DNA of 64,000 nucleotides from Diprion similis (taxonomy: Eukaryota > Arthropoda > Insecta > Hymenoptera > Diprionidae): assembly GCF_021155765.1 (NCBI RefSeq), contig NC_060115.1, forward strand, positions 13,806,493 to 13,870,492, read 5' to 3'. Of the stretch, positions 2,710 to 13,292 are shown one piece after another. The notes under the pieces were generated by a model, which saw only the letters and a program-made list of their open reading frames with translations, made no database searches and was not told the DNA's origin. The number at the start of each line of letters is the position of its first letter. Within the stretch, counting starts at the first letter, position 1. Both the position numbers and the translations under genes were made by a program.

Positions 2710-3151
2710 TGTTACGGTACAGGGGGACGGCAGTCCATGTACCCATCCGATGGTGTTGGTTCGGGTGCTATTTTTGTAGGTTCGTAGTCGTCGCCGTTTT
2801 CGTTCAGGGAACGGAAGGGAAAGAACCGTAATTAGAGAATGATTATAACTTTTATTTTGATTTGGAAATTGAGTGAAGTCGATGAGGAGTAGTTGAGACA
2901 ATGGTTTTGGGGAACGGGAGTTGAAGTTGAATGTAAGAGGTAAGAGCGTTGGAATGAGAGTGAGTCTCTTGCATGAGAAAATGAGCGAGGATACAGGATA
3001 GAGGGGGATCGAAATGGCAAGGTAAGGGCGATAGCGAGTGGTGTAAGCCAAGATGGAAATAGGATGACAAGATATGGAGTGTGGGAACGGTAGGTAAAGA
3101 CAAGCGTCGAGGAAGGTTGGAAAGACGTGAGGCGGGACGTCGGACGTAACA
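2710..3151 (-). repeat. 3' LTR of errantivirus-like element
   Basis: 442 bp, direct repeat of 8077-8518, bounded by TGTTAC/GTAACA inverted ends. Differences from the other copy include T/C at the ACCCAYCCG site and AGTGTGGG versus ATTGTGGG. Open frames across it are repeated in both LTR copies and are not genes. Confidence 0.92.
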
Positions 3152-3409: not shown

Positions 3410-3680
3410 TATACAATTATAATTAAATTATAATTTTCAAGGTTTTGATTGTAGAGAGTATAGATACAATCAAAGTTAAATGACAATGTCAGGGGTATAA
3501 TTGTAGATAGTATAGATACGATTATAGTTAAATTATAATTTTTAGGGTTTTGATTGTAGATATTGTAGATACAAGTCAAAGTTAAATGACAATGTCAGGG
3601 GTATAATTGTAGATAGTATATATACGATTATAGTTAAATTATAATTTTTAGGGTTTTGATTGTAGATATTGTATACGGTT
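3410..3680. repeat. Tandem repeat, period about 106 bp
   Basis: About two and a half copies of an AT-rich unit starting GGTTTTGATTGTAGA and containing TGACAATGTCAGGGG. It lies between the end of env and the 3' LTR, a non-coding part of the element. Confidence 0.7.
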
Positions 3681-3767
3681 ATTATAATAGCGTAATTTGA
3701 GACATTTTTATTGAATGATATTTGGGCATAACAATGGATATGTTCTTATAAATATGTAGTAGAGGGC

Positions 3768-5789
3768 TTAGTCTGTCCAGATGAAGAGGGAGTCGGAACT
3801 AGCGTCAAGGCTCTGATCGCGGGGCAGTTTACGTGGGTGTTGTCGTAGCTTGGACATTTCCATCATTTCAATTTCTGAATGAGCTCGGGGCAGCGACGAA
3901 GTGCGAGGAGACAGGTCCTTAGGGAATGACCTATTTTCTAGGTGAGGGTGGGAAATGGCATGGTGGGAAAGGATTTGGGGTCTTGGATGACGTGAGTCGA
4001 GGTTGTGGCGTATTCGCCTGGATTTACAGCAAGAGTATACTTTTGAGATTCTTCTAAATAATGAGAGTTTGTAGCAAAAGAAAACTGCTGAGAGGGACGC
4101 GAAGGCGATTCCGCCATAGCTGAGGTTGGTGGTGAGGCGATGCATGTTACTTTGAGTACGATAGTGTGTGCTTAGATCGGCTGAGCGTTTGAGCACGTCA
4201 TTCAGGGCAACGCCAGCGATGGCAAGGTCATTGGAGTTAATGTGTGAAGGTTCACGCAAGGGGAGGATGGCGACGAGGGATAAGTCAGTGGAAATATTCA
4301 AATCAAGACTAACGGATATTTCGCTTAAATCTAGGGTAACCTTGGGAACGTAGGAGAGTGTCTCGGTAGATTGGGAACGTTTTGAGGTTTTGAGGGTTAC
4401 TTCAGAGGTACTAGCCGTACATAAGTCATTCAGGGAGATAATTCCTGAGCCGGAGATCGTCACACGGGAGGTGTGGTCATTTGAGCAGAGAATATGTAGA
4501 GTTTCAGGAGTGGAAGACGAGAAAATCCAAGAATTGGATGTAGATAGTTCTGTCCAGTAGGTACCATCGAATGCGGTCAGTCTGATATCGTATTCTTTTG
4601 CAATTCTCTCAGAGGGGTTTAGAAAAAGACCAACCTCACAGAGTCGGTGAGTTGAGGGGTGAAACAGTGGTTGTGTCAGTTCGCATATGAATTTACCCAA
4701 AGACAAAATGCATCCAGTGAATTTAGATTCTGAAATTTGGAAGTATGACGCTCGGTTAAGTGCTATAGCTACGTAATCACTGCCAGGTTGAATGTAGGCG
4801 AATTTGTTATTTGTTGAGTCGTACGTCTGTCTTACAGGGACGGGGAGCAGTCTGTATAGGTTATAGGCGTCGGGGTTGAGCAGTGGGATAGATATTACGT
4901 AAAGGAGCCTGGGCTTGGAATACGCTATGTCGATTTGTGATATGCGAATTAATCCTTCGGCGTAGTTTGGGTCTAGTGGAATAGGGAATTCTATTTGCGG
5001 TCTAAGTGACTGGATATGCTTAAGGCTAGAAATAATTTGGTTCGGTGATAGAATTTTGGGGTGGACAATACCTTTTTGTGCGAAAAGAATGGCGTCTGAT
5101 AGGCTGTACAGGTCAAGTTCGTATTCGTTCAAGTGTCGGTCCAAGTCCATTAGTCGGTTGAGTAAGGTTGTTCTAAAGGTATTGTCAGCAATTAAGGCTT
5201 TTGAGATAGCTGCATCATTCGAGAGAATCGTAAGTAACGTATCGCGTTCGTGGTTGTGGCTTATAATGCTGTCGAGTTCTTTTTTGTAGGCGCCTAGTGT
5301 TAACTGGACGATATTAGTCTGTTTATTAAGGAGAGATGCTAAGTGTCTGCTGTCATTGTAAAGGTTGTCGATTTGTTGATTGTAATATTCTCCGTCTTCT
5401 ACGTCTAGGGTACCGAATAGAGATTTTGATATGCTACCAATGAAGTTAATCGCGCCTCGTGTTTTGCGATGGTGGGCTAGCTTTGCAAGTTCAGAGTGAG
5501 TCGATTTGCCTGTGCGATGGCCGACTAGGTATTCGATTCTTTTTTGACATGTTTTTATGGTTTTTATTCTGTTAGCCAACATTGGGATGTGATTACCGGT
5601 CTGGCAATTGCTCTTGGCCAAAGAGCACTTTTTCTCTATTATATTCAAGAAATCTGATGCTTGGTCAAGTCGGTCGAATAGGTTTTGGAGGTCCACGTAG
5701 TTTAGCAGGGTCCATTCTTCGTTATATGTACGCAAGTCTTGCAGTTGTTCGAAGAAGATGCCCGGGTTCTGTTTCAGTTGTTTAATCAT
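3768..5789 (-). CDS. env: Errantivirus/baculovirus F-like envelope protein
   Basis: 673 codons, uninterrupted. Around residues 108-111 there is a basic RKTR site followed directly by GAINFIGSISKSLFGTLD, the layout of a furin-cleaved F-type fusion protein with its fusion peptide. A hydrophobic segment near 555-578 should be the membrane anchor, followed by a cytoplasmic tail of about 95 residues rich in Arg and His. No signal peptide follows the first Met. The frame stays open upstream to a CATTGCAG/G acceptor at about 5833, so Env probably comes from a spliced mRNA whose 5' exon supplies the start, as in other errantiviruses; that exon may be in the deleted part. This is the only intact gene of the element. 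Function as an envelope is inferred from family resemblance. Confidence 0.85.
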   Translation of the reverse strand: MIKQLKQNPGIFFEQLQDLRTYNEEWTLLNYVDLQNLFDRLDQASDFLNIIEKKCSLAKSNCQTGNHIPMLANRIKTIKTCQKRIEYLVGHRTGKSTHSELAKLAHHRKTRGAINFIGSISKSLFGTLDVEDGEYYNQQIDNLYNDSRHLASLLNKQTNIVQLTLGAYKKELDSIISHNHERDTLLTILSNDAAISKALIADNTFRTTLLNRLMDLDRHLNEYELDLYSLSDAILFAQKGIVHPKILSPNQIISSLKHIQSLRPQIEFPIPLDPNYAEGLIRISQIDIAYSKPRLLYVISIPLLNPDAYNLYRLLPVPVRQTYDSTNNKFAYIQPGSDYVAIALNRASYFQISESKFTGCILSLGKFICELTQPLFHPSTHRLCEVGLFLNPSERIAKEYDIRLTAFDGTYWTELSTSNSWIFSSSTPETLHILCSNDHTSRVTISGSGIISLNDLCTASTSEVTLKTSKRSQSTETLSYVPKVTLDLSEISVSLDLNISTDLSLVAILPLREPSHINSNDLAIAGVALNDVLKRSADLSTHYRTQSNMHRLTTNLSYGGIAFASLSAVFFCYKLSLFRRISKVYSCCKSRRIRHNLDSRHPRPQILSHHAISHPHLENRSFPKDLSPRTSSLPRAHSEIEMMEMSKLRQHPRKLPRDQSLDASSDSLFIWTD

Positions 5790-5919
5790 GACAGTGGATG
5801 ATTCGTCTGTCTCGCTGTTGAGGGCGTTGCACCTGCAATGATATTCGAGGGCATGAGGCGGAATATGATGCAGTTACGGGTAGATTGATAATATACGGCT
5901 GTTGACTTCTAAAGGTGGT

Positions 5920-7455
5920 TTAATTTGAATCACTTCTTTCCTGTGCTAATTTGAGTTTATTCAGATGGACAATTTTGGTCTTATGGGGGGTGATGAAAAT
6001 TTTTTGATATCGTCAATTATGCGCTTGATCGTATATGCTCCTTTATAGTGGTCGTCAAATTTAGATCGGGTTTCGTTTAGTAGATAGACCTTTTGGCCTG
6101 CTTCGAAATTTTGGTTATTGGTACGACGGTCGTAGTACGTCTTGGAACGGTGCTTTGCTAAAATGAGGTTAGCCGCGGCGTTTTTTCGTATGGTGGATAG
6201 GTTGGAGATTAAATCTAGAAGGAACGAATCGTAGGAACGGGTGTAAGCGCTGGCAGGGTTCGCGTCTGTCGGAAGTCTGGCATGGGAACCGAAAATTAGC
6301 TGATGGGGAGTGAAGTTAGTGCCTTCGTGCTTCGCGGTGTTATAACAGAAAATAGCAAAGCGGATGTATTCATCCCAGTCTTTACCAGCATTCGTGTAAT
6401 GCTTGACGTGTTCGGTGAGAACAAGGTGACTGCATTCTAGCGATCCGATAGATTGTGGGCGGTAAGCTGTAGTTCGAATTTGTTTTATTTTAAGAGTTTA
6501 CAAAGTTGCTTAATGACTGTGCTCATGAGATTTTGTCGTTGGTCTGTAAGTATTGCTCGAGGGGCACCGTAACGTGTAATATATTCTTTCGCGAATGCTG
6601 CACCTATTGTTTTGGCAGTGGCGTCAGGTGAAGGGATGGCGTCCAGAAATTTCGTCAAGTTGCATTGTATCGTCAAAAGGTATTTGTTGTTTGATTTAGT
6701 AAGGGGGAGAGGTCCAACGATGTCTAGTGCTACTTTGTCGAATGCATCGGCAGGAGTATCTGTTATCACCATCGGCAACCTGGTTTTTACTCTTACTAGT
6801 TTCTTCCTTTGGCAACTCTCACAAGTTTTTATGAAGTCTTGGATTTGTTCTTTCATGTGCGGCCAAAAATATTTTTGTCTAATGCGGTTGTATATTTTTG
6901 TGACGCCTTGATGACCGCCAATTAATGATTCGTGGCATTCTTTAATTATTTCTTTACGTAAACATTCGTCTGGGGTAACAGTCGTGTTGCGGCAAAGCGT
7001 GATTTGAATTTGTAAGTCTGCGAAAAGGTAAGATAAGAGTTTTCGGATAACACGAGGATCGAGTCCACCTAAACTATCGTCCGTTATTGGGAAAGCAAGG
7101 GATTTCGGAATTGAATCGGTCAAGACTGTTTTCAGTTTAGACAAGAGTTGAAAAATGTCATATAGGTTGCTTTTATCTGATTCTTTTGATTTTAGTACTA
7201 GAGTAAAGATCCGTCGGTTGTTGTGCTTGGATTCGATAATATCAAATTTCTGTGGACGGGGCCTCATAACTATATCTGGGTCAACGATATTATCGTGGGC
7301 AAGTTGTGATGATATGCCTTTAGTCCAAGAGCAGTCTGTTGATATAAAGTGTGCATAATTGGTTTTGAGCATCAAAAGACCATCATTGGTGTCTTTGACA
7401 TTGTCAGCTACCGGTATGTCGTCCAAGTTGTCAACAAAGTTCGTGAAATGTGGGA
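5920..7455 (-). pseudogene. pol: Integrase part of errantivirus-like pol, frameshifted
   Basis: The first piece (6485-7455) has the N-terminal zinc-binding module (H-x-H around GGHQG and C-x2-C in CESCQRK), then the catalytic core with Asp in VALDIVGPL and Asp in ILTDQRQ. The frame breaks at about 6490 in an A-rich run. The next frame carries the third acidic residue (GSLECSH) and the C-terminal part, and a second shift near 6000 leads to a tail ending HLNKLKLAQERSDSN and a stop at 5920. All three acidic catalytic residues survive but in different frames. The 5' side joins a proline-rich linker in yet another frame. Confidence 0.85.
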
Positions 7456-7463
7456 GGTATCGG

Positions 7464-7906
7464 TCAAATCGTCGTCAACATTGGGATCAATGTCATGGTC
7501 AGAGTGTGTGGTTTCCATATCGGAGTCGGATTGTCGGGCGCATGTATGGTATTCGGTATCCGTGAGCGATTTGAAGCTGTGTCGTTATCAGAGGCCAGTG
7601 TGGGTACTGAGGGAGGAGGTGGAGGGGGGTGAGTAGTAGAGTTCGCTGGCCTGGGGACAGTGGTTGGGCGTCTTTTAGCACGACGCGGGGGTCCTACAGG
7701 CGGGGGCATGACGACGTTCGTGGCTGGGAGGGGAGGTGGGGTCGCGAGAGGTGCGACTGATTTGGTCGGAGGTTGCGGTTTCTTATGCGGCGGACGAAGA
7801 GAGGGAGCAAGGTTACCAGATGTGGAAGGGATGGGGTCAGGTGAGGCGTTATCAACGGACACTGTTGTGTCGTCGTGGTGTGTGGGGGTTGAAAGCGGAG
7901 GGTCAA
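7464..7906 (-). pseudogene. Proline-rich linker of pol
   Basis: In frame with the macro-domain piece upstream there is a stretch of about 145 residues dominated by Pro, Thr and Ser with PPPPPP and PPPVGPPRRAKRRP. It looks like a disordered linker between the macro-type domain and integrase. The frame is lost before the integrase starts. Overlapping plus-strand Gly-rich frames are its shadow. Confidence 0.5.
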
Positions 7907-8045
7907 GGCGACAAACGGTGATGTTCATTTTTGAATCTTTGAAAATATAGTGGATCATTTTGCGCACCGTGCTCCATTCTAGTTTGTCGAGTCCGCAGCC
8001 TATTAACGGGATTGAGACAGATCTTACACCAGTCTCTTCGGAGGC
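7907..8045 (-). pseudogene. C-terminal fragment of a macro domain (OARD1-like) in pol
   Basis: The minus strand reads VSIPLIGCGLDKLEWSTVRK, then MIHYIFKDSKMNITVCRL. The IGCGLDxLEW block and the following helix-strand end match the C-terminus of macro domains of the OARD1/TARG1 type, which remove ADP-ribose adducts. Comparable domains occur in pol of insect errantivirus-like elements between RNase H and integrase (established only by my recollection). Only about the last 40 residues remain; the rest was deleted at the junction with the tRNA copy. Confidence 0.65.
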
Positions 8046-8073
8046 GTGGGTTCGTATCCCACCGCTGCCACCA
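8029..8073 (+). other. Primer-binding site extended to a 45-nt tRNA-Leu copy
   Basis: On the plus strand this reads as the 3' part of a class II tRNA-Leu (AAG type): anticodon-stem end, long variable arm (CTTCGGAG), T arm, acceptor strand CGCTGCC, discriminator A and a CCA tail. CCA is not genome-encoded in eukaryotic tRNA genes, so the copy came from mature tRNA. By my alignment 44 of 45 bases match; the mismatch is T at 8055, exactly tRNA position 58. A normal primer site is about 18 nt. It lies three bases from the 5' LTR. Confidence 0.85.
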
Positions 8074-8076
8074 GAA

Positions 8077-8518
8077 TGTTACGGTACAGGGGGACGGCAG
8101 TCCATGTACCCACCCGATGGTGTTGGTTCGGGTGCTATTTTTGTAGGTTCGTAGTCGTCGCCGTTTTCGTTCAGGGAACGGAAGGGAAAGAACCGTAATT
8201 AGAGAATGATTATAACTTTTATTTTGATTTGGAAATTGAGTGAAGTCGATGAGGAGTAGTTGAGACAATGGTTTTGGGGAACGGGAGTTGAAGTTGAATG
8301 TAAGAGGTAAGAGCGTTGGAATGAGAGTGAGTCTTTTGCATGAGAAAATGAGCGAGGATACAGGGTAGAGGGGGATCGAAATGGCAAGGTAAGAGCGATG
8401 GCGAGTGGTGTAAGCCAAGATGGAAATAGGATGACAAGATATGGATTGTGGGAACGGTAGGTAAAGACAAGCGTCGAGGAAGGTGGGAGAGACGTGAGGC
8501 GGGACGTCGGACGTAACA
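8077..8518 (-). repeat. 5' LTR of errantivirus-like element
   Basis: 442 bp, near-identical to 2710-3151, same TGTTAC/GTAACA ends. ATCA directly follows at 8519-8522 as the TSD. Confidence 0.92.
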
Positions 8519-8907
8519 ATCAATAAAAAATGAAAGTTTTTTATAAAAAGTAAAAAAATTAAAAGTGACAATCATCAAAAAATTCGCGATTTCTTCCGAA
8601 AATCTAATAATAAACATCGAAGATGGATGTTGATCATTCTCATCAATTTTTTTCTGAGAAGTATATTAAAATACGAACATTTAAAAAAAAAGAACGTCCC
8701 AATACGTCAATTTTTAAAAAAGTTATGGTGATTTAAAAAAAAAACCATTCTTTTTTCGAAAAGTCATGATTTTTTTTGGTCGAGTAAAAAAATTTGAAAA
8801 AATTTTGAGAGACGTCTTTTATGAGGTAGAAAATGATAAAAAATTTCCAGCGAAATCGAAAGGGGTCGGGTTCAAAATTGGTCGATTTGGCATGGAATGA
8901 CCCATAT
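8519..8907 (-). repeat. Foldback element, right arm
   Basis: Inverted copy of about 1633-2040, ending at CCATAT. Separated from its loop only by the LTR element. The match to the left arm is somewhat diverged with small indels in the A/T runs. Confidence 0.7.
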
Positions 8908-9008
8908 GTTCTTTTGATCTCCACACACGAGACATGTTCCTGAATTCGGATACAGACTTGAGCACGAACGTGAATAAGGCAGGCCGAGACTCCACGTAAA
9001 TATATCTG

Positions 9009-11707
9009 TATACCGGGACCATCTCTAGAAACTAAACAGGAACTGCGCATGCGCCAAATGATTCAATTTCATTGGCCAGCGAAATTGCCCCGCGGAGTAA
9101 TTTTCGTCAGCTAACCAAAGCGACCAACGTACACGAAATGTGACAAGGCTCTGAATATCTCGCGCGTAAAGTAGCGTATTGAGGTTAGGTTGTTATTTAT
9201 TCCTACTTATCGTGAATTTTCTAAGAAAAGTGTCATTCAGCAATACCGTAGTTGATATTAGCAGATATTTAATCGACACAATAAAGGCGTCAATGGAGAA
9301 ACAAATATCAAAAGCTACAGAAATTGGATCAGTTATTTATTGAAAGAAGAAAACTGAAATTAAATGTGGAACGTCATCAACGAGTGGGAGTCTAGACAAA
9401 CTGAGGCAGGTAAGTAAAAATATTGTTTATTTCAAACAGATTCTTTATTTACATAAAATTAAAAATAAATGGATTGTTGAAACCCAGTAGAGGGTTGCTC
9501 CAGAGTAAATTTGTTACAGTGCAGTGCTCCGGAAGCCAGTAATCAGTGCCAATGAACATGAAATATTAAAATAAAATCAGTAACAAGGAATAAAAGAAAT
9601 AGTGTATCTTGAAACACAAAGCTTAGGAGTACAAAAAGTAGCAATTCGTTTTTCTGTCGCAATTTATTGAAAATTAGTGGTATTCAAAACAATTAGAAGC
9701 TCTTGTCTGATGATAATATCTTTTAATATTTTCATGTGGGAAACAAACATCATCGAAGCGAGACTAAAGTTGTCAGGCGTTGAAGCGTGTAAGTAAATTT
9801 CTGATACTATGATATTTGCATATTACAATATTTTCACATGTATTCAATGATAAAATTCGTTTGTTCTGACAGACTTGAAGTTTCAAGTTTGGATAATAGG
9901 ATGAAAATCATACCTTACCTGATGGTCAAAACGTTTTGGTGGCTAGGACCCTAGTTTCTCGATTGGTGCCACCGTTCCAACCATCGAACCTGGTTGTTCC
10001 GTTGTTCCATTAGACAACAGGTATCCGAAGGAATTTCTTCTGGTCATCGCCACCTTCTGAACATCAGTCGTGGCAAAATTGAAGAGCACGACACACTACA
10101 GATCATGGTGTTTGAATATTCCATCATTTTAGATCTATCGAGCCAATAGTAATAAGTTTGTTATTCAACAATTGCTGCTAACTAATTTTACAGAGCAATC
10201 ATTCCGTGCACCATTGTAATCCAAGCAGTATTATTGGCCCGCATTATTCTTCAAATTTTATTTTCGGCAGTTTTGATATTTTATTTTTCACTCTCTTGGT
10301 ATTCAATTCAGATGAATAGTGTTTCAAGTGTTAAATCATATTCCAAGGATGAATTTTGATGTGTAAACTGAACCAATCTCAATCTAAAAATGTTGGATAA
10401 CTTCAGTTGAAAATGTCTTTAAAATCAATATTAATCGACAGTATCATCTGACTAGCTAGTTGCAGCTATCATCCGTGCTTGAGCCTCGTTCAACCCCAGC
10501 AAGGTCTAAGGAATGCATTCACTTACTAGTACACGTTACAAATGATCACTTTGTCTACAATAGGACTTACTTGCTGGCTAACTTTTTTATGATGAATCTT
10601 TATCAGGGAGTCATCCGGTAACTTATTGAAAGCTTGAAACCAGATTCAATTTTATACTCTTACAATGGTCCTTCATTGAAACTGAGAGTTTGTGAATCTC
10701 CATTTATTACAATTAATTCTGCATCCCATGTTAACACTGTTCGAAACAAAAAATCTCATCCTAAGATTGGAAATGGAATCTGCAATGCAAAAGTTATCTA
10801 GTGGCACAAGTTAAAAACAAAGAACCTTATAACGGTTTCTGCGACAGAGGGATTCCTTCCGGATATTCATGTTACTGGATGATGTTCGGAGCACTATGAA
10901 CAAGATATTGTATTGGATTTAGGTTTAAGTAAATATTTTCATGAACTTCAGTGAAAATTAGATATTCATTTGTTTCAAAGGAACAAGGGGTACAATGTTG
11001 AATCCGATAAGTCAATATTTTCATATGAATGTTCTGAACATTACTCTAAAACATGATTATCCTTAAAGTTAATTACTGAGGCACATTTTGAAAATGTTGA
11101 TTTTTAACTTGTGTCACAGAATGTTTCTGAGTTTTACTCTTCGGATTAGATTTCTTTAGATTAGATTTGAAATTGAAAGAAACCGTAAGATCTACAACTT
11201 CCTTTTCCAACCAACAAAAGTGGCCGATGATCTCTGCATGTGTCACGAATTGAATGGGAAGAGAAGACATCAGCTAACAGCAGAGATGCTATTATTTTGG
11301 CTGTATTTTCTGTTGAAAGAAAAAAATTTCATTGTTATTCTTAATGTATGAAGTAATGAAAATGATTGAATAAATTGTCCCCACCTACCTGCTTCGTTTC
11401 TTCCAAGCACCCAACATTTGAACAGATTTCTTGTTTCAATCGAATAGGACGAATTTTCAAAGAGCATCAGCATTAAATTCCGACCGTTCTTTGAACAATC
11501 AATTTTCAATAACAAATGCTTCCCAAGCCTTTCCGAGTGACTATCTCAATGACTTGAGATTCTAACCTCAAAAATGCATGTGAACTACATCGCCGACAGA
11601 AACAGAGTTTGACAGCAGGGTCTCGGGGTGGCCAGACTGCACGGACGGCGGATTTATATTCGCGCATGCGCAGTTCCTGTTTAGTTTCTAGAGATGGTCC
11701 CGGTATA
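9009..11707. mobile_element. TIR-bounded DNA transposon relic, family unknown
   Basis: The ends are inverted repeats of about 46 bp: TATACCGGGACCATCTCTAG continuing through AACTGCGCATGCGC at the left and its complement at 11662-11707. No intact ORF is inside. The two largest minus-strand frames (11073-11270 and 11270-11515) resemble nothing I know and may be fortuitous. AT-rich internal sequence gives no transposase motif. It could be non-autonomous or fully decayed. I could not settle the TSD because both flanks are TA-rich. Confidence 0.6.
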
Positions 11708-13292
11708 TGAATATATGAATTTTAGATATAAATGAGTTATATCTAATACAACTACTTGGAGTCATGCTTGGGGACATACTCAATTTTTCTTGTATATAGA
11801 AGTTCGTAATCTGATAATCGCTGAATTAAAAAAACGAGTGTTGAAACAGTTACTTCATTCAGTAAGCAACGGTCAACAGGATGATCAACTTCAAAGACAA
11901 GCGTGGAGTTGCCAATAGCTGAAACCTTGAATATGATAACCCCAAGGGATGGATTCAGTCCGAGTGGTCTCGAGGAGGAACGGGGTATGAAGGCAGTAGC
12001 TGGGGCTAAAGCAACCCTATAGCATTCAGTATCTTTTTCGAAATTCTTAACCAAACATCCAATCGATCTAATTGCAAATTACGATTTTTCAAATATGCAT
12101 CATATTCAGGAAATTAATTCATTTTTTTGCAGCAATTCAGTATTTTCTCGTTTATAGCATACAAACTATTAAATGAATAGTAGAGTTCGTAGAAATTGGA
12201 ATGTTGAATCGCATCAACATATTACTTTCTTCATTCAATGGTATCGTTATTAAAATCAAACCGGCATTCGAAGCAATTCACAAAATCATAGCAACATCCT
12301 TGCTTCGAAACAACAAATATTCAATCAATTTAAAACGTTATCTTGTTAGAATAATCGTACGTTTCTTCCAATAAACGATCTCGAACCTTGGTGCAACTAA
12401 GTGTCATTGTTCAACAGGATAAATTTTCTTTTTCACAAAATAATAATGTTTCTCTCGATAGAAATATTTCTTCGGATTAAAGATCATTTTTCTTCATATC
12501 AGGAAATACCTCGTTGTGTTCTGAAAATGTACAATTTCATTTAAAACATGTAGTTTCACGTTGATGGCATATATTTTTTTTTTTTTTTTTATTAAATATG
12601 GTCCTCGTAGACATAAGTAACATATTTCATTGTTATAAGAATAAGCGATCGCTTCATGTGAATTCATTTCATTACATACAATGCCATAATCAAGAAAATA
12701 TCGCGTTAAACATTGTAAATATTATTTGAGTGAACAAACAGTTTATTTGACATAAATCATGTAGCGCTTGGATAAAAATATCAAACGAGAAGAGCAACTC
12801 AGTGAAGTATCTAGCCTAACCTTTATCTAATTCATTTGAATTATTTTTTATTTGTCTTAAATACAGAATTGTTTGATTAAAAATTACATAAATTGTCGCT
12901 TCGAATAAATGTGCTCTCAGTACCATCCAAACGCATAAATTATTTAGATCAATTAACATTTACTAAATCCAATAACTTTTTTTTCTCAGTGTATGTGCAC
13001 ACGCACATACCCTTTCTGGGAAAAGCTAAAATAGTCTAAATCGGTTAGGAATGCGCGATTATGCACACCGAACGAAAAGAGGTTCCTTTTCGTGTTTCAT
13101 ATTCAAAATGGCGTTTGCGCCAATTTTCGTTATGATATTCGTGATAAGGAGGTCTGAATACATTATTATACCAAGTTTCAGATCGATCAGCGGTATGCGC
13201 TTTTCGGAAGTACACCCCAAAACCAAATTATCAGAATATACACACTAACCAAATGGCAGGCAAATATAGACATAAAAAGACAAAGTATTACC
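11708..13292. other. Non-coding AT-rich stretch
   Basis: No convincing gene. A 100-residue minus-strand frame at 11752-12054 has no recognisable motif. A T(18)-type run lies near 12570. The last part, from about 12980, may already be upstream sequence of the gypsy relic. Confidence 0.35.

Follow-up and report, generated by a model that had tools for sequence, protein, structure and literature searches.

A tRNA-Leu copy at a deletion junction in an errantivirus-like element of Diprion similis, the probable product of an aberrant plus-strand transfer

We analyzed a stretch of 64,000 nucleotides of the genome of Diprion similis (assembly GCF_021155765.1, contig NC_060115.1, positions 13,806,493 to 13,870,492), which is called the window in this report. 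On its minus strand lies an LTR-flanked element in which a copy of tRNA-Leu(AAG), extending well past the ordinary primer site, is joined directly to pol. We consider it very probable that this element arose when the second (plus-strand) transfer of reverse transcription went astray, that is, that m1A58 of the primer tRNA was over-read with a misincorporation, that synthesis was arrested before m1G37, and that the over-long strand was annealed in pol.

The LTRs of the element are located at 8077-8518 (5' LTR, TGTTACG...CGTAACA) and 2710-3151 (3' LTR). Each is 442 nt long, and the comparison of the pair gave 8 differences. When the flanks were compared, a target-site duplication of 4 bp, ATCA, was found at 8519-8522 and 2706-2709. 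The tRNA copy adjoins the 5' LTR and occupies 8027-8073 (47 nt). Aligned with the mature tRNA-Leu(AAG) from C38 to CCA, it matched at 46 of 47 bases. The first 13 nt on the LTR side (8061-8073, TGGTGGCAGCGGT) are the ordinary tRNA-Leu primer site common to the relatives of the element, and the over-read part, 8027-8060, is continuous with this site and runs beyond position 59 of the tRNA as far as C38. The only mismatch is at 8055, which corresponds to tRNA position 58 (T in the tRNA sense, A in the element sense). The base of the tRNA following the end of the match would be G37. Because the last 5 nt, TGGTG (8027-8031), are common to the tRNA and pol, the true end of copying lies somewhere among positions 38-43. 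The first-pass annotation had described 45 nt with CCA at 8029-8073 and an end of copying at about position 40, short of G37. The match to tRNA-Leu and an end short of G37 agree with our alignment, but the length was too short by two bases and the 5 nt shared with pol must be allowed for. Its remark that the single mismatch is T for A at position 58 was correct.

We then compared the copy with the tRNA genes of the host. The 28-base core of the copy occurs at four places in the 269-Mb genome, namely the window and three host genes (L039, L040 and L041), all of which carry A58 and are called tRNA-Leu(aag) by ARAGORN. With up to 3 mismatches the search gave seven places, that is, the same three genes, the window, and three other loci (L044, L045 and L050) that carry the window's base at 58. 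Another pattern gave 17 places, including a tRNA-Leu(tag) gene (L055) with A58. A tRNA-Leu gene with T58, which the earlier annotation had named as a refutation, was not found in the genome with up to 3 mismatches; a variant host gene was thus rejected as the template. No tRNA gene was recognized in the window (0 genes), which speaks against the view that the copy is itself a tRNA gene or pseudogene.

The presence of CCA alone is not proof of a mature-tRNA template, because the primer site of the element already supplies these bases. What argues for such a template is which base stands at 58 and where the copy stops. This matters for one alternative, in which a break after insertion was repaired with filler from a tRNA-Leu gene, beginning within the bases that gene and primer site have in common and closing on pol through microhomology. 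Filler repair would explain CCA because the element supplies it, and the gene and the site share TGGCAGCGGT. However, it leaves the repeated base at 58 unexplained: all three genes found have A58, a later mutation exactly at 58 has a chance of about 1% as estimated from the 8 differences in 442 nt of LTR, and L050, which is described below, would require the same accident at 58. It also gives no reason for an end at position 38. We regard such a repair as highly improbable.

In order to clarify the ordinary form of the primer region, we examined the relatives of the element. Among the 60 matches listed with up to 3 mismatches, 42 were exactly ACATTCTGGTGGCAGCGGTTTT, which is the ordinary end of the LTR followed by the 13-nt site and TTT; these 42 exact places include some sister subfamilies (L077, L098). 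The others were one GGTTTG variant, the window itself, and 16 places in other elements. In a second comparison, in which 40 of 172 candidates were scored, all of the 39 other places matched only from the 13-nt site outwards. Since 42 of 60 sites were exact and 39 of 39 matched from the site outwards, the tRNA match retained in the ordinary form is 13 nt long. The native site is therefore not the 18-nt one that had been assumed at first, and the usual 18-nt tRNA copy is not inherited in the family of the window either. Ty3 is described as inheriting its primer site strictly (PMC7472051), and our result agrees with this. The 47-nt tRNA segment was present in no member of the window's family among the matches listed. 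A long primer site shared by the whole family was rejected, as the ordinary members among the matches listed (up to 3 mismatches; 40 of 172 scored) lack the copy.

On its other side the tRNA copy is joined directly to what remains of a TARG1/OARD1-like macro domain in pol, namely the last 42 or so residues (7905-8031). The whole domain can be seen in the relative L006, where it matched OARD1/C6orf130 structures with an E value of 1e-20, and this confirms the earlier assignment of the junction to the end of a macro domain; the domain had no Pfam listing at E 0.01. In L006 the RNase H precedes the integrase in pol, and in the family of the window the macro domain is positioned between the two. 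In the window copy, no gag-PR-RT-RNase H frame separates the 5' LTR from what is left of the macro domain, as had been noted before. The size of the loss was obtained from eight pairs of macro-domain and LTR matches by subtracting their coordinates: the spacing was 4,982-5,060 nt in five pairs and 4,952, 4,939 and 3,669 nt in the other three. The same spacing is 21 nt in the window, meaning that approximately 5.0 kb is missing.

At the junction itself, all seven pol relatives compared (L002-L008) have GAAGAAGATGGTGTAAG where the window reads GAAGAGACTGGTGTAAG. The window and the pol relatives have an identical TGGTG, and over the last 18 bases they agree at 13. Microhomology had thus been rightly expected at this place, but its exact part is TGGTG within an imperfect match of 13/18, and not GAAGAGACTGG. 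Among the internal pieces compared, which left about 2 kb of the deleted stretch, where a better site may lie, outside the site comparison, the junction is the best 3'-anchored match (13/18 with 5 anchored bases). The next best sites reached 9-10/18 in the 3.1-kb pol pieces and 10 and 11/18 in L011 and L018, which are 5' pieces including LTR. The chance of an equal 3'-anchored match is 5.5e-6 per site, so that about 0.03 would be expected in 5 kb.

One independent parallel case was found. L050, which belongs to another subfamily than the window, contains a tRNA copy that has A at 58, ends at C38, and is joined at TTGGTG. In its sibling L097 (91% identity across 559 of 680 query bases), an ordinary leader follows the 13-nt site. 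A stretch of leader present in L097 is replaced in L050 by the tRNA complement, which joins the leader at TTGGTG. The LTR pair of L050 is 97% alike over 257 nt. L050 itself seems to be internally deleted, and neither an LTR start nor a target duplication could be fixed for it. Of the 20 pieces that we compared, five (L097-L101) contain the primer site and leader, L107 contains only the end of the 3' LTR of L050, and the remaining 14 had no usable primer site.

L044 and L045 have A at 58, and L048 has the templated T; these three loci are candidates for further over-read copies. Few or no relatives were found for L044 and L045, and these loci are therefore unproved as events of LTR elements; the families of L044, L045 and L048 are too sparse for the state before the event to be seen. 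In L048 (C7:9242572), what comes after the tRNA-Leu copy resembles a portion of the locus's own LTR end, as though the plus strand had gone back to the LTR.

The A at 58 shared by four copies might be taken to mean that an ancestor already possessed a 47-nt complement with this base, which reached the copies by descent or recombination, and that the deletion occurred later. The leaders of the L097 group, which resemble the tRNA complement as far as the same TGGTG, would also fit such an ancestor. Nevertheless, the copy is absent from L097 and from the window-family matches listed, and the other changes of L044, L045 and L050 are all absent from the window copy. Furthermore, the alignment of L044 and L045 to the window is confined to the tRNA segment, and where the L050 LTRs can be aligned with those of the window, the likeness is about 79%. 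An inherited long site is very unlikely in our opinion.

When the five copies were pooled, with the copy ends set by eye and one of the five (L048) carrying the templated base, position 58 was changed, and to the same base, in 4 of 5 copies compared with 14 of 220 other sites (Fisher P 1.4e-4). For sites outside the primer site, the figures were 4/5 at 58 and 12/155 elsewhere (P 3.2e-4). The lengths of the copies were 42, 44, 46, 47 and 47 nt; they end at positions 38-43, and none goes further. Among 20 distinct primer-site sequences, the tRNA match was 25 nt or less in 15 and 42-47 nt in 5; the pattern that gave 17 places demanded a match up to 25 nt and left the copy length beyond it unlimited. 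Four loci with G at 58 (L049, L051, L056 and L057) were not included among the over-read copies, because their extensions are short (21-25 nt). Searches with patterns for the tRNA-Ser and tRNA-Lys ends, which may not fit this species, revealed no further case: the tRNA-Ser end gave one match, without the CCA complement, and the tRNA-Lys end gave none.

These values bear on a further possibility, namely that the primer tRNA was merely unmethylated at 58 and that the base there is an ordinary later mutation. Plus-strand synthesis passes this position when m1A58 is absent (PMC13191261), the LTRs of the window element did gather changes, and L048 has the templated base. But the same change at 58 in 4 of 5 copies, against 14 of 220 elsewhere, speaks against mutation of the ordinary kind, and we think this possibility has little likelihood.

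An over-reading of the methylated primer would proceed as follows. We take m1A58 and m1G37 to be present in the primer tRNA-Leu of the window element, as in eukaryotes in general. The plus-strand strong-stop DNA would run through the LTR and on into the attached tRNA-Leu(AAG); m1A58 would be passed by the insertion of A opposite it, and synthesis would continue until it was arrested before m1G37. At the 13-nt primer site, the 3' end of this over-long strand would not pair properly, and no extension could start from it. Instead, its last bases (TGGTG-3') may have paired with the pol part of the minus strand, at a well-matching place, and been extended, by which about 5.0 kb between the primer site and pol would be dropped. 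The shortened DNA would then integrate with the 4-bp target duplication. According to PMC4787781, reverse transcriptase that passes m1A misincorporates; in the m1A-A context, which is the one present here, C is infrequent among the mismatches and T and G remain, and the strong preference for dATP is reported for m1A-U, so that T is not the sole base expected before A. For HIV-1, PMC13191261 states that stops at m1A58 dominate and that a minor in vitro plus-strand product stops at modified position 37. Judged from sequence comparison, read-through of 58 with misincorporation, a stop before 37 and re-annealing in pol, which had been offered as a simple explanation at the outset, appear to be supported: L050 repeats both the base and the end at C38, and neither a full-length relative with the same segment nor a host gene with T58 was encountered within the searches described.

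The leaders of L077 and L097-L101 resemble the tRNA-Leu complement in register to position 38, at the same TGGTG. In dinucleotide shuffles kept in register, an equal likeness over 36 nt, a length selected after L050 had been seen, occurred 0-1 times in 3000, and over 34 nt P was 0.004-0.02; the six leaders are kin and do not amount to independent tests. An unconstrained local test gave P of about 0.009. The leader of the window's own family showed no significant likeness to the tRNA in dinucleotide shuffles (P 0.22-0.35). The L097-type leaders may be acceptors kept by selection, or over-read copies that have decayed. In lentiviruses and spumaviruses, the primer over-extension sequence is likewise viral, lies beside the primer site and accepts an over-extended plus strand, but it serves the stop at 55 (PMC13191261), whereas the L097-type leader resembles the tRNA complement to C38. 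We put forward only tentatively, as a view with rather less than an even chance, that these LTR elements record the modification state of their primer tRNA, with recurrent over-reading to m1G37 and a fixed error at m1A58. The leaders of L077 and L097-L101 would then be decayed over-read copies, or else selected acceptors ending at TGGTG, which would let plus strands arrested at position 37 finish the transfer and renew the leader, as in L050.

Large deletions in retroviral vectors were reportedly traced to errors of strand transfer by Pulsinelli and Temin in 1991. As in those vectors, the transferring strand here would have annealed at a wrong place and given a deletion; unlike them, the present case is a natural genomic element, in which the base at position 58 and the boundary short of 37 are both preserved. 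The individual steps are known biochemistry. In the in vitro product P5 of HIV-1, A58 is passed and synthesis stops at the modification at 37, as appears to be the case here. P5 is however among the minor products, and PMC13191261 names P2-P4 alone as those that serve, whereas here a descendant was integrated, apparently by means of microhomology at the 3' end. We found no paper on such a fossil in an integrated element in a search by title and start of abstract. If our interpretation is correct, the element would be a natural-genome case of this in vitro event, that is, an overrun of m1A58 with a stop at 37, rescued by microhomology and integrated. Fossils of primer over-reading could then be gathered across genomes, and might inform on past tRNA modification and on how frequently the stop at m1A58 fails.

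Errantiviruses are insect Ty3/gypsy elements with an env like the baculovirus F protein. The window element has an env-like open frame of the Baculo_F family at 3771-5873 (E 4.8e-54), and an integrase region at 5964-7474 that is broken into two frames (Integrase_H2C2; rve was below the cut-off). It thus shares with errantiviruses the LTR pair, the 4-bp duplication ATCA, the integrase and the Baculo_F env, but differs from them in that its family has the TARG1-like macro domain between RNase H and integrase and in that the stretch as far as RNase H is gone from this copy. No paper combining an errantivirus with a macro domain was found in the literature search. A possible second, diverged macro-like segment lies at 6983-7378, and 39 residues of it are 33% identical with the end of the first; a PDB search with this segment gave no macro match. 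Tandem repeats of about 53 or 105 nt are present at 3411-3682, inside the element and close to the 3' LTR. The element is flanked on both sides by inverted copies of another repeat (1632-2028 and 8518-8907, 87.5%). Inverted repeats of 49-55 nt are also found at 9000-9057 and 11659-11716; they are 94.5-98% alike and 2.7 kb apart, and are perhaps the ends of a DNA transposon adjoining the element.
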